Source of the DNA: Caulobacter sp.
GTDB lineage: Bacteria > Pseudomonadota > Alphaproteobacteria > Caulobacterales > Caulobacteraceae
Direction: 5' to 3'
Assembly: GCA_016125585.1 (NCBI GenBank)
Contig: WGLL01000001.1
Span: forward strand, 186,001 to 250,000
DNA length: 64,000 bases
The translations under genes were made by a program, and so were the position numbers. Under the pieces are notes generated by a model. The model ran no database searches, had not been told where the DNA came from, and worked only from the letters and a program-made list of their open reading frames with translations. Shown here in pieces: positions 12,053-19,521 of the stretch. Each line of letters starts with the position of its first letter. The stretch's first letter is position 1.

Positions 12053-12793
12053 GTGGCGTTCAGCGAGGAGGAGGTCGACCGCTACGCCCGGCATCTGGTG
12101 TTGCGCGAGATCGGCGGGCCGGGCCAGCAGAAGCTGAAGGCGGCCAGGGTGCTGATCGTCGGCGCCGGCGGCCTGGGCACCCCGGCCGCCCTTTATCTGG
12201 CCGCCGCCGGGGTGGGCCGGCTGACCCTCAGCGACAGCGATACCGTCAGCCTGTCCAACCTGCAGCGGCAGGTGCTGTTCTCCACCGGCGATGTCGGCGC
12301 GGCCAAGACCGCCGCCGCCCGCGCCAGGCTTGGGGCCCTCAACCCCCACGTCGAGATCTTCGCCGCTCCGGCGGCGACGGCGGAAACCCTGGCAGCCCTG
12401 ATCGGCGGCCAGGACCTGGTGCTCGACGGGACCGACAATTTCGAGACCCGTCTGGCCGTCAGCGACGCCTGCCTGACCGCCGGCGTTCCCCTGGTCAGCG
12501 GCGCCATTGGCCGCTGGAGCGGCCAGGTCGCGGTGTTTAGGGGGCGTCCCTGCTACCGCTGCCTGGTGCCCGAGGTCCCGCCGGACGCCGAAACCTGTGT
12601 CGCCGTCGGGGTGGTCGGCGCCCTGGCAGGGGTCATCGGCTCGATGATGGCCCTGGAGGCGATCAAGCTGATCACCGGCGCCGGCGCGGCCCTGACCGGT
12701 CGCCTTCTGATCTACGATGGCCTGGCGGCCGAGACCCGCACGGTGCGCGTCGCCGCCGATCCCGGCTGCCCCGCCTGCGGCGACCGCCGATAG
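12053..12793 (+). CDS. moeB: MoeB/ThiF-type E1 adenylyltransferase
   Basis: A 246-residue enzyme that adenylates the C-terminal glycine of a ubiquitin-like sulphur carrier (MoaD or ThiS). ATP-binding motif [19 protein letters not shown] near 39-57, then [16 protein letters not shown], the catalytic-Asp segment [10 protein letters not shown], and the zinc pairs CYRC and CPAC (last residues). No rhodanese domain is attached. The GTG at 12053 is chosen because it gives the usual N-terminus [13 protein letters not shown] and has GTGAGG just upstream; a longer reading would overlap hslV. Whether it serves molybdopterin or thiamine synthesis cannot be told, since no carrier gene is nearby. Confidence 0.85.
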
Positions 12794-12882
12794 GGCAAGC
12801 TATCGCGACGGTTCTGGTCTAGGATCGCCCGTCGGCGGGTTGTGACGCGATGCGCGTCTATCCCCCGGCCCGAAAGGACGTC

Positions 12883-13014
12883 ATGTCCAGACCCACCCAG
12901 ACCCCGCTCCGCCATGTCCTGACCGATCCGCGCTCGACCGGCGCCGTGACCCGGCCGCGCCCCGCCACCGCCAACGGCCTCAATGATCCCCGTTCCACCG
13001 GCCCGCGCCGGTGA
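12883..13014 (+). CDS. 43-residue repeat-containing small protein (micro-operon gene 1)
   Basis: A very short gene preceded by a good ribosome site (AAAGGA, 12872-12877). The product begins MSRPTQTPLRHVL and is rich in Pro, Thr and Arg. It contains the motif DPRSTG twice, about 20 residues apart (LTDPRSTGAVTRPR and LNDPRSTGPRR), so it looks like an internal duplication of a basic, probably disordered peptide. Its stop overlaps the GTG of the next gene (GTGA, 13011-13014). No family is recognised. The coupled overlap through the whole set is the main argument that it is translated. Confidence 0.5.
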   Translation: MSRPTQTPLRHVLTDPRSTGAVTRPRPATANGLNDPRSTGPRR

Positions 13015-13217
13015 GTCTGCTTGGTGGGATCCTGGGCTCGCTTGGCGGCGGCGTGCCGGCGGCGGAAATCCGCGCCGAGGCCTGGGCGCTGGGCGGACGG
13101 CATCAGGGCGATGTGCTCCTTGGCGCCCGGACCGAACTTCGCCAGCAAGGCATCAGCCCCCGCCGGGCCTCGCTGCTTCGGGCGGTGATCAGAAGCCGGC
13201 CGGAAGCAGCCCGATGA
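13011..13217 (+). CDS. 68-residue small protein (micro-operon gene 2)
   Basis: Begins with GTG 13011 inside the stop of the preceding small gene and ends in an ATGA overlap with the next. The N-terminus MSLLGGILGSLGGGVPAAE is glycine-rich and hydrophobic, followed by two likely amphipathic helices (IRAEAWALGGRHQGDVLLGARTEL and PRRASLLRAVIRSR). Basic overall. No family recognised; too short for a confident fold. It could be membrane-associated through the N-terminal stretch. Confidence 0.6.
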   Translation: MSLLGGILGSLGGGVPAAEIRAEAWALGGRHQGDVLLGARTELRQQGISPRRASLLRAVIRSRPEAAR

Positions 13218-13402
13218 CACCGGAAGAGATCGACCGGCTGACCCGCGAAAACGCCTATCTGAAATCCCGCGTCAGCCAGCTCGAGGGCGATGTGACCGAT
13301 CTGTCGGCCGAGGTCACCCGGCTGCAGCAGACGCTGGAAGCGGCCCACGCCCGCCGCGCCGCCGCCACCCGGCCCAATCCCCTTTCCGGCGGCCAGTCAT
13401 GA
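13214..13402 (+). CDS. 62-residue coiled-coil protein (micro-operon gene 3)
   Basis: Starts at ATG 13214 in an ATGA overlap. Residues 4-45 form clear leucine-zipper-like heptads (IDRLTRENAYLKSRVSQLEG, then VTDLSAEVTRLQQTLEAAH), so the protein should dimerise or bind a coiled-coil partner. The short tail ARRAAATRPNPLSGGQS is basic and probably unstructured. The pattern resembles SlyX or FtsB-like short coiled coils but no specific family match is claimed. It overlaps the next gene by ATGA at 13399-13402. Confidence 0.65.
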   Translation: MTPEEIDRLTRENAYLKSRVSQLEGDVTDLSAEVTRLQQTLEAAHARRAAATRPNPLSGGQS

Positions 13403-13593
13403 CCCTCACGGAAGGCCAGCTCATCGCCCTGGAAAATCTGGCCCTGAAGCAGGCCGGCAAGCCGGTGGACTGGATCAATATCAGCGACGCCCGGTCCCTC
13501 ACGGATCTGGGTCTGGCCGAGCGCGGCCGGGAGGGCTGGACCATCACCGCCCTTGGCCTTGAGGCCCTGCAGATCGCCAAGCCGCAAAAATAG
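13399..13593 (+). CDS. 64-residue small protein (micro-operon gene 4)
   Basis: Starts at ATG 13399, overlapping the coiled-coil gene. The chain MTLTEGQLIALENLALKQAG, then VDWINISDARSLTDLGLAER and EGWTITALGLEAL reads like a minimal winged-helix: helix, helix, then a wing-like strand pair ('GLAER.REGWTIT..G..AL' is common at the end of MarR-like domains). A DNA-binding or scaffold role is possible but unproven. It ends the run of four overlapping genes. Confidence 0.65.
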   Translation: MTLTEGQLIALENLALKQAGKPVDWINISDARSLTDLGLAERGREGWTITALGLEALQIAKPQK

Positions 13594-13653: not shown

Positions 13654-14277
13654 ATGAAGACGCCCCTCATCGCCGCTGCCTTGGTCCTGCTGCTCGCCGC
13701 CTGCGGCAAGCCGGCCGACAAGCCGGTCCAGGCGCCGGTCGCCCCGGCCACCGAAGCCACCCTGCCGGCCGACGCCCCGATGGCCCGGCTGGCCTGGTCG
13801 GCCTCGGCCGCCGGCATCGGCCCCCTGACGCCCTCCACCAGCTTTGACCGCGAGGCCGTCGCCGCCCTGTTTCCCGGGGCCGACGTCCGCAACGCCTATC
13901 TCAGCGAGGAAGGCGTCCAGGTTCCGGTCATCACCGTCAACGGCCCCGAGGACCTGGTTCTCGAGATCAAGCAGGCCGGCTCCACCGGCCGCGTCGGCGA
14001 CACCCTGGTCCAGGGCGGGCCGGTGGTGGGCCCCCGGGGAGAGACCCTGATGGCCCCCTGGTCCAGCCTCGGCTTCAAGGCCGCCGACTGCGTCATCGGC
14101 GCCGACCGCTATTCCGGCGCCGCCCTCTGTCGCCGGGTTGATACGCCAGCCCTGGCCTATGTCATCGGCGCCCGGGGCGAGCTGGCCGGCCGTCCCGGCG
14201 AGACCCCCGACGCGGACGTCCTGGCCGACAAGGGATTCCTGCGCGAATTCCTCTGGCAGTCGCCGTCTCCCCGGTGA
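13654..14277 (+). CDS. lipoprotein, DUF1131-like
   Basis: A 207-residue outer-membrane or periplasmic lipoprotein with a signal peptide and lipobox LAAC, the lipidated cysteine being C17. After a Pro/Ala linker, the domain SAAGIGPLTPSTSFDREAVA and ALFPGADVRNAYLSEEGVQV, with a conserved GDTLVQGGPVVGPRGETLMA, resembles DUF1131 (the YfeY/RpoE-regulated lipoprotein family), though this is from memory of the pattern. Two cysteines near 148 and 159 could bond. TAGGTT at 13642-13647 may be a -10 element, again placing the start of transcription at the ATG. The stop overlaps tsaB (GTGA). Confidence 0.75.
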   Translation: MKTPLIAAALVLLLAACGKPADKPVQAPVAPATEATLPADAPMARLAWSASAAGIGPLTPSTSFDREAVAALFPGADVRNAYLSEEGVQVPVITVNGPEDLVLEIKQAGSTGRVGDTLVQGGPVVGPRGETLMAPWSSLGFKAADCVIGADRYSGAALCRRVDTPALAYVIGARGELAGRPGETPDADVLADKGFLREFLWQSPSPR

Positions 14278-17226: not shown

Positions 17227-17230
<4 letters not shown>

Positions 17231-18171
17231 GTCGACCCCCCGAGTTTCTGACCCTGTCCGACGCCGCCGCCCGCGCGGTCGCCGGCCCCGGCAGCCGCCA
17301 TACGGCCCTGATCGAGGACGCCTTCAAGGTTCTGGTGGAGACCCCCGGCGGCGGCGTGTCGCTCAGCGGGGACACCCGCGCCCGGTCCCTGGCCAAGCGG
17401 GCCATCGCCACCCTGGCCGCCCAGGCCGACGCCGGCGGCGAGGTTTCGGAGGCTGACGTGCGCGTGGCCATCGGCCAGTCCCGCTCCGGCGAGACCGGCC
17501 CCGTAGCCCCCGGCTCGCCCCGCCGCGGCGCGGTCTCTCCCAAGACGGCGACCCAGGCCCAGTACATGGAGATGCTGGGTCGCCACGACCTGGTCTTCGG
17601 CCTGGGACCGGCCGGCACCGGCAAGACCTTCCTGGCCGTAGCCCACGGCGCCGGCATGTTGATGCGCGGCGAGATTGACCGGCTGATCGTCACCCGCCCG
17701 GCGGTCGAGGCCGGCGAGAAGCTCGGCTTCCTGCCCGGCGACCTGACCGAGAAGGTCGACCCCTACATGGCCCCGGTCTGGGAAAGCCTGATCCAGATCA
17801 TGGGCGGCGAGCAGCTGCGCAAGCGCCGGGAGAAGGGCGAGATCGAGGTCGCCCCGATCGCCTTCATGCGCGGCCGCACCCTGGCGCACGCCTTCATCAT
17901 CGTCGACGAGGCCCAGAACACCAGCCGGCTGCAGATGAAGATGGTTCTGACCCGCATGGGCGAGGGCAGCCGCATGGCGGTGACCGGCGACCCCAGCCAG
18001 ATCGACCTGGTCAACGCCGCCGACTCCGGCCTGGCCCACGCCGTGGCCATCCTGGAAGGCGTGGAGGGCGTCGCCGTCACCCGCTTCACGGCCGCCGACG
18101 TGGTGCGCCACCCGATGGTCGCCCGCATCGTCAAGGCCTACGACGAAGACGCGGCCAAGCGCGGCCGATGA
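17227..18171 (+). CDS. PhoH-like ATPase (YbeZ type)
   Basis: A 314-residue P-loop ATPase: Walker A GPAGTGKT at 127-134, Walker [13 protein letters not shown] near 222 and the sensor GDPSQIDL. YbeZ-type proteins act with YbeY in rRNA processing and, here too, the genes are adjacent and overlap (ATGA, 18168-18171). GTG start at 17227 overlaps the miaB stop. The first 115 residues are a variable helical domain. Confidence 0.92.
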
Positions 18172-18644
18172 GCGACCCCGAGATAGAGGTCGAGGTCGAG
18201 GACCCCGCCTGGAACGCCGTGCCGGATGTCGAATCCGTTGTCACAATGGCCGCGACGGCGACGCTGCAAATCCTCCTCCGGGGCGAAGCCGCGGGGGAGG
18301 ATCCTGGATCCGTGACGATCCTGCTCACCTCGGATGACGTCGTCGCCGATCTCAACGAGCGCTTTCGCCACAAGCCCGGCCCGACCAACGTGCTGTCCTT
18401 CCCCGCCCCGGCCAACCCCGAGAATCTGCTCGGCGACATCGCCCTCGCCCACGGCGTCTGCGCCCGGGAAGCAGCGGAACAGGGCAAGACCCTGGCCGAC
18501 CACCTCGCCCATCTGACGGTGCATGGCGTGCTGCATCTTGCGGGATACGATCACCAGACCGATGATGAGGCGCAAGTGATGGAGGCTCTGGAGCGGCGCG
18601 TGCTGGCCGGCCTGGGCGTTTCCGATCCCTACGCCGCCGATTGA
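18168..18644 (+). CDS. ybeY: endoribonuclease YbeY
   Basis: A metal-dependent RNase needed for 16S rRNA 3' maturation and ribosome quality control. The 158-residue product carries the zinc motif HGVLHLAGYDH at 119-129 and the preceding NVLSFPAP strand. A 40-residue N-terminal stretch is typical of alphaproteobacteria. Coupled to phoH upstream and followed by corC ten bases after its stop. Confidence 0.95.
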   Translation: MSDPEIEVEVEDPAWNAVPDVESVVTMAATATLQILLRGEAAGEDPGSVTILLTSDDVVADLNERFRHKPGPTNVLSFPAPANPENLLGDIALAHGVCAREAAEQGKTLADHLAHLTVHGVLHLAGYDHQTDDEAQVMEALERRVLAGLGVSDPYAAD

Positions 18645-18654
18645 CCAAGGGGCC

Positions 18655-19521
18655 ATGGCAAACACTGACGATACCGAATCCCCCGCCGAACCCCCTTCGC
18701 GAAGTCGCGGAGGGCTGGGCGGTCTGCTGCGCCAGGTCCTCCGCGTGCTCAACGAGGGCGCCGATCCCGACGCCCCGGTCGCCGAGACCGACGAGATGGC
18801 CCGTCAGGCCCATGAATTCGCCGGCCTCGACGTCGGCGACATCATGACTCACCGGGCCGACATCCAGGCCATCGAGGTCAACACCCCCTTCGACGACGTC
18901 GTCGCCCGCTTCCTGGAGACCGAACACAGCCGGCTGCCGGTGTTCCGCGAGACCCTCGACGACCCGGTCGGGGTCATCCACATCAAGGACATGTTCCGGG
19001 TCCTGGCCTCGGGCGAGCGGCCGAAGACCGGCACGGTGCTGCGCAACCACAAGCGCGAGGCCCTCTACGTTCCCGAATCGATGCCGGCCACCGCCCTGCT
19101 GGAAAAGATGCAGACCAGCCGGGTGCATCTGGCGCTGGTCATCGACGAGCACGGCGGGGTCAGCGGCCTGGCCACGCTCGAGGATCTGCTGGAGGCGCTG
19201 GTCGGGGAGATCGACGACGAGCATGACGAGGCCCAGGTCAGCGGCGTCGTCGCCCGGCCCGGCGGCGTCTACGACATCGACGCCCGCACCGACCTCGACA
19301 AGCTGGAGGCGGTGCTGGAGGTCGAGCGGCTGACCCCCGAGGAGATGGGCGAGGACTTCGACACCGTCGCCGGCCTGGTCACCGGCCTGGCCGGCCGGGT
19401 GCCGGAAGTGGGCGAAATCATTGAACATCCCGATGGCTGGCTGTTCGAGGTGGTCGACGCCGACCCCCGCCGTGTCAAGCAGGTCCGCCTTCGCCGCGCG
19501 ACGATGCAGGACGCCGGGTGA
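18655..19521 (+). CDS. corC: CBS-domain protein of the CorC/HlyC family
   Basis: 288 residues without membrane segments: an N-terminal linker, two CBS domains (about 62-125, VGDIMTHRADIQAIEVNTP, and 135-190, ending HGGVSGLATLEDLLEALVGE) and a C-terminal CorC_HlyC FAD-fold domain (about 205-285, with DLDKLEAVLEVERL). It lacks the DUF21 membrane domain of full transporters, as in CorC. Role in magnesium or ion homeostasis is inferred from the family. The stop overlaps the GTG of lnt. Confidence 0.88.
   Translation: MANTDDTESPAEPPSRSRGGLGGLLRQVLRVLNEGADPDAPVAETDEMARQAHEFAGLDVGDIMTHRADIQAIEVNTPFDDVVARFLETEHSRLPVFRETLDDPVGVIHIKDMFRVLASGERPKTGTVLRNHKREALYVPESMPATALLEKMQTSRVHLALVIDEHGGVSGLATLEDLLEALVGEIDDEHDEAQVSGVVARPGGVYDIDARTDLDKLEAVLEVERLTPEEMGEDFDTVAGLVTGLAGRVPEVGEIIEHPDGWLFEVVDADPRRVKQVRLRRATMQDAG

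Follow-up and report, generated by a model that had tools for sequence, protein, structure and literature searches.

Within a window of 64,000 nucleotides (nt) from Caulobacter sp. (contig WGLL01000001.1, positions 186,001 to 250,000; on contig C16 of a genome of 3.96 Mb), four tiny consecutive frames on the + strand, here called O1 to O4, are real genes under purifying selection, as judged by comparison with their relatives. Their families recur in a conserved order, with exchangeable small partners, at different sites in Caulobacteraceae genomes. We propose, tentatively, that their products may form a regulatory small-protein complex in which a zipper dimer of O3 carries O4, and in which O1 and O2 are exchangeable partners. 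The frames have 43, 68, 62 and 64 codons and overlap as GTGA, ATGA and ATGA; a preliminary description of this DNA had reported these lengths, their coordinates and the three 4-nt overlaps, all of which proved exact when we re-checked the sequence. The genes and the elements before them are:

12883-13014, + strand: O1, 43-amino-acid (aa) basic peptide with two DPRSTG motifs
13011-13217, + strand: O2, 68-aa three-helix protein (model), GTG start, GTGA overlap with O1
13214-13402, + strand: O3, 62-aa leucine-zipper protein with a conserved PNPLSGGQ tail, ATGA overlap with O2
13399-13593, + strand: O4, 64-aa minimal winged-helix protein (model), ATGA overlap with O3
12872-12878, + strand: Shine-Dalgarno sequence GAAAGGA of O1, identical in 7/7 same-site genomes
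12795-12825, + strand: conserved upstream stretch (gcaagct ... ctaggat) in a seven-genome alignment, candidate promoter

The genes stand in the order O1-O2-O3-O4 between a ThiF-family gene (thiF) and a lipoprotein gene in seven genomes (that of the window, G035, L106, L107, L108, L110 and L113), bearing out the conserved order that the preliminary description had proposed looking for in relatives. The pairwise ratio of nonsynonymous to synonymous substitution rates (dN/dS) was 0.07–0.60 and lay below 1 in each of the 29 comparisons, which have sequences in common and are not independent (O1, 0.14–0.38 in 5 comparisons; O2, 0.16–0.48 in 8; O3, 0.11–0.60 in 8; O4, 0.07–0.49 in 8). Among near relatives, the third codon position was the most variable in 12/12 comparisons, with p < 0.05 in 8 of them. 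Neither dN/dS near 1 nor frameshifts in relatives, named beforehand as signs against the frames, were seen.

Relatives of O4 occur in 48 of 149 Caulobacteraceae genomes and 11 of 22 genera, five of these genomes having diverged paralogues alone (E-value (E) 1e-5 or weaker). Among the same genomes, O3 has relatives in 28 (21 with E < 1e-10) and O2 in 25, and O1 has matches at E ≤ 0.01 in 40, the weakest of which are doubtful. The 39 loci with named hits are labelled Caulobacter, Phenylobacterium, Brevundimonas (one metagenome-assembled genome) or unnamed Caulobacteraceae, Caulobacterales or Alphaproteobacteria. Scans of 385 genomes of the class, made with O2, O3 and O4, returned two genomes for O4 (that of the window and one with a weak match of 24 residues), two for O2 (its own and one weak match) and seven for O3 (its own and six weak matches within longer frames); because scoring was limited to the 15 or 16 best candidates in each genome and the sample holds few Caulobacteraceae, these scans bound the spread only roughly. 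No second full copy of the cassette stretch is present in the window's own genome.

The overlaps say less than they appear to. The run of four had been thought unlikely to arise by chance, a claim that fails: 30 order-3 Markov versions of this GC-rich window contained 447 chains of at least four frames, each of at least 40 codons and joined by exact 4-nt overlaps, or about 15 per 64 kb, and the real window contains 6. Because such chains are common in the Markov versions, geometry alone is no proof of genes, and the status of O1 to O4 as genes rests on homologues, substitution pattern and gene order. Three of the five other chains begin at 17230-18847, in what we take to be a miaB-phoH-ybeY-corC operon, where only some of the frames can be real genes, again showing how little the geometry says.

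Across loci, the junctions are tight. With the start closest to the previous stop chosen, a choice that biases the distances, the O2/O3 junction is a 4-nt overlap in 13 of 16 distinct cases and the O1/O2 junction in 9 of 14, the O3/O4 junction lies between −4 and +3 nt in 20/20, and O4 follows another small gene, T, at 0 nt in 4/4. No single frame containing two of the families was found. As reported earlier, a clear ribosome site precedes the first gene only: GAAAGGA stands before O1 and is kept in every genome at this site, and O2 to O4 have at most weak sites by eye. An alternative in-frame ATG at 12850 would extend O1; the conserved GAAAGGA directly precedes the start at 12883. The conserved stretch about 58–88 nt upstream of O1 is a candidate promoter of the operon's own. 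Scans for sigma-70 promoters and intrinsic terminators found nothing, and an RNA-family scan gave just two sub-threshold microRNA matches, both in thiF. The EcfG/SigT general-stress motif, GGAAC-N15-19-CGTT, occurs in 0/59 upstream regions of O4 loci, three of which are short (69–357 nt).

We compared 66 O4 loci with distinct DNA, a set that includes near-identical strains and diverged paralogues and in which some flanks are short. O1, O2 or O3 lies within 1.5 kb of O4 in 41 of them, another recurrent small family in 12 more, and neither in the remaining 13. Counted by family, O1 is present at 21 loci, O2 at 24, O3 at 24, S at 10, E at 9, P at 5, T, D and the CspA-like family C at 4 each, and K at 3. 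All four genes meet in just 9/66 loci; others hold O1 and O4, O2 and O4, O3 and O4, or O4 without a tiny partner, and in some of them other small genes replace O1 or O2. These varied arrangements argue against a fixed four-subunit complex. The idea of an undescribed small multi-protein complex, put forward as a possibility in the preliminary description, is partly supported: the genes are real and co-conserved, and their four products may or may not form one complex.

Where O4 meets one or more of O1 to O3, the order O1>O2>O3>O4 holds on one strand in 38/41 loci, the exceptions being L074 and L187 (paralogous, with O4 before O3) and L192 (O1 and O2 on the opposite strand). Among loci found through O3 and O2 and lacking O4 there are also the orders O3-O1-O2 and O3-O2 (L069, L070). 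Over the 149 genomes, O4 and O2 are present together in 20 against 8.1 expected, and O4 and O3 in 17 against 6.8 expected. In 16 long loci, chosen partly because partners had already been seen there, O1, O2 and O3 lie near O4 in 6, 9 and 9, respectively, and none of ten families was found in 27 windows 4–7 kb from O4 in the same loci. Families S, P, E, T, D, C and K were found in 0/28 control loci that surround the lipoprotein gene in other genomes, at all of which the cassette is absent; for O1 to O4 this control is circular, as two cassette-bearing loci of 30 had been excluded (2/30 with them). The gene before the lipoprotein gene is presumably nitroreductase-like or NfuA-like in 8/9 of the cassette-free loci inspected. 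Even within the window's genus the cassette occupies at least six different chromosomal sites, and these data do not tell relocation from differential loss of copies. By our reading of the neighbours, the sites in this genus include thiF-lipoprotein, a kdpDE-like pair, folE/cysS-like genes, a csp-like/D/E cluster and the T gene site; the site in L017 has what we take to be an alpha/beta-hydrolase neighbour.

The four products differ in kind. O1, in which the reported duplicated DPRSTG is present, is a basic and probably disordered peptide. O2, which is also basic, is modelled as three helices, with a predicted local distance difference test score (pLDDT) of about 90 over residues 21–60 and a mean of 78. 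The leucine heptads ascribed to O3 follow an a/d pattern (L16, V20, L23, V27, L30, V34, L37 and L41 in the window's protein), and N13 is invariant in 30/30 sequences. Many coiled-coil models match O3 at scores that stay below the models' cut-offs, the best being ZapB in Pfam (E 9e-5) and one at E 8e-5 in NCBIfam; O3 also matches PHROG 1399 (E 7e-6), a phage family of unknown function; among solved structures, sequence comparison returned coiled-coil chains only. O4, earlier called winged-helix-like, indeed has a predicted structure of the minimal winged-helix type (pLDDT 85), with winged-helix structural neighbours, which are MarR-like at middling Z, with other winged-helix-bearing proteins such as Rio2 kinases scoring alike.

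Pfam, NCBIfam and PADLOC contain no model that covers O1, O2 or O4; at E ≤ 1, O4 has no Pfam or NCBIfam match and O2 no Pfam match. PHROGs matched these three at E 0.1–0.27 only, solved structures gave nothing below E 0.28 for O2 or O4 by sequence, and the E. coli records searched yielded no useful match. The earlier statement that no family could be recognized thus stands for O1, O2 and O4 and needs amending for O3, given its coiled-coil and phage-family matches. Operons of small proteins are a known kind, and within the searches made these families and their shuffling are undescribed; literature searches on Caulobacter small proteins, ribosome profiling and the general stress response turned up no description of the operon, and one with the motif letters gave no paper. 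In C. crescentus, PMC4117421 reports 94 coding sequences of less than 50 aa.

In the complex that we propose, ribosomes would enter at the O1 site and start anew at every overlap, so that the proteins would be made in roughly matched amounts. O3 would form a short parallel zipper dimer that displays two copies of the winged helix O4, and the two coupled chains would together take the place of a single dimeric winged-helix regulator. MarR- and PadR-type proteins achieve dimeric winged-helix regulation with one chain. The basic O1 and O2 would be swappable partners that set the target or touch nucleic acid, and the complex would most likely tune transcription or signalling during stress or adaptation.

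Known systems resemble parts of this arrangement. In its predicted model, O4 has the winged-helix core common to MarR-type regulators but lacks dimerization helices of its own, its 64-aa chain being the core only; O4 proteins are mostly acidic. O3 has heptads like those of bZIP/GCN4-type zippers, and its profile reaches GCN4-based chains (E 0.002–0.005), but it lacks a basic DNA-binding region and ends in the conserved PNPLSGGQ tail; the likeness is a common sequence pattern and not evidence of homology. Sso10a, a Foldseek match to O4 (E 0.24), likewise joins a winged helix to a coiled coil, but does so in one chain with an antiparallel coil, according to the entry title, whereas O3 and O4 are two genes.

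The strongest rival is that the proteins are merely co-expressed: each of the four small, lineage-specific proteins would have its own job, probably as a helper in stress or stationary phase, and only a common promoter and translational coupling would join them. We hold this to be about as probable as the proposed complex, as partners (S, P, E, T, K, D and the CspA-like C) are swapped freely, O1 and O3 are found elsewhere without the other members, and some loci have cold-shock-like genes and families K and D close by. Separate jobs fit less well with an order kept in nearly all loci that hold O4 and at least one more of the four, despite differing sites, with junctions that stay near zero although the sites differ, and with the absence of the families 4–7 kb away in the same loci.

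We think it rather unlikely that the products serve a histidine kinase or phosphorelay as small connectors, in the way that the four-gene ycgZ-ymgABC operon of E. coli acts on the Rcs system. In one genome a HisKA_2 kinase gene and O4 share a 4-nt overlap (L129 2949-4198; the same genome as L026), and Caulobacter ginsengisoli has such a gene immediately upstream of O1-O2-O4 (L133 2469-4183), but a genus mate of the first genome (L134) has O4 without such a kinase. E. coli ycgZ-ymgA-ymgB-ymgC are likewise four adjacent small-protein genes (PMC3509220), and YmgB was the top VIA-align entry for the O2 model. However, PF10798 (YmgB/AriR) gave no match at E ≤ 10 in the window's own genome, whereas the E. 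coli control did match, and the available part of PMC3509220 describes no pair of zipper and winged helix for ycgZ-ymgABC.

A mobile accessory cassette, such as a defence or toxin–antitoxin module hopping between sites, would account for the variety of sites within the genus and for the patchy occurrence of O4 among the genomes, yet we hold it to be very improbable. Genes for transfer-messenger RNA (tmRNA) are a known kind of integration site, and one (8932-9273 in L034) lies about 0.45 kb from an O1-O2-O4 cassette; by contrast, 13/16 long loci hold neither transfer RNA (tRNA) nor tmRNA, and no tRNA lies within 50 kb of the cassette in the window. PADLOC models gave no match for O1 or O2 and only partial matches to long models for O3 and O4 (E ≥ 0.014; one for O4, E 0.016). 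Searches of phage and plasmid records, which covered O2 to O4 and not O1, returned no phage match for O4 at E ≤ 1 and only partial plasmid matches (E 0.2–0.3), no phage or plasmid match for O2 at E ≤ 0.1, and for O3 one partial phage match (E 0.06) and none in plasmids. No transposase or integrase was noticed beside the cassette, for which no dedicated search was made, and no product looks toxin-like by eye. That the frames are spurious, the reading favoured by the frequency of chance 4-nt chains in this composition, has a negligible probability and is refuted by conservation, namely homologues, dN/dS, codon-position bias and the conserved start site.

In the window, thiF (PF00899, E 1.4e-71) ends at 12793, leaving 89 nt before O1, and the lipoprotein-like gene at 13654 is followed by what are presumably tsaB-, rimI- and fur-like genes. 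A link to the molybdenum cofactor, considered because of thiF here and of a gene beside O1 to O4 in L043 that we take to be fdhD-like, was dropped, as other sites lack it. Solo O1-type genes (MKTYPGTRP..GLNDPRSTG..DPDALRGTKT; L172-L177 and L180) are conserved at sites apart from the cassette in several members of the window's genus whose genomes also carry O4 elsewhere. In loci L182-L187 a diverged second O4 lineage of this genus has a cluster to itself, mostly S-O4-(O3)-E; it includes a second O4-O3 pair, and gene E, conserved and 68–72 aa long, lies downstream. Family S (73–101 aa, with a core like LRRYAVRLQPDVNAAGLLVHRAFAAAF) precedes P-O3-O4, O1-O2 or O4, and in L040 and L045 it is followed by family P (about 86 aa); by eye S resembles sigma factor region 2, but Pfam searches with two members found nothing at E ≤ 0.1. 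The Lys-rich peptide of family K (MAKGQKKSNKE.RKPK) recurs by O1 or O2 and elsewhere in Caulobacteraceae. Members of the two families include:

Family S: L040 10833-11138; L045 9104-9400; L168 1193-1414; L183 2615-2851; L185 3051-3305
Family K: L164 1323-1439; L133 2012-2206; L046 11595-11705; and others

Operons of such small proteins are hard to call from a single genome, and it is conservation, order and partner swapping that make these four unnamed families credible. O3 and O4 offer a testable pair of zipper and winged helix in relatives of a model bacterium. A broader idea, which we regard as speculative and on balance unlikely, is that the Caulobacteraceae share a kit of tiny proteins (O1 to O4, S, P, E, T and K) shuffled among micro-operons, in which a dimeric regulator would be split into zipper O3 and winged helix O4 and assembled from exchangeable, co-translated pieces. 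If true, such a split regulator would be an unusual modular construction of transcription regulators.
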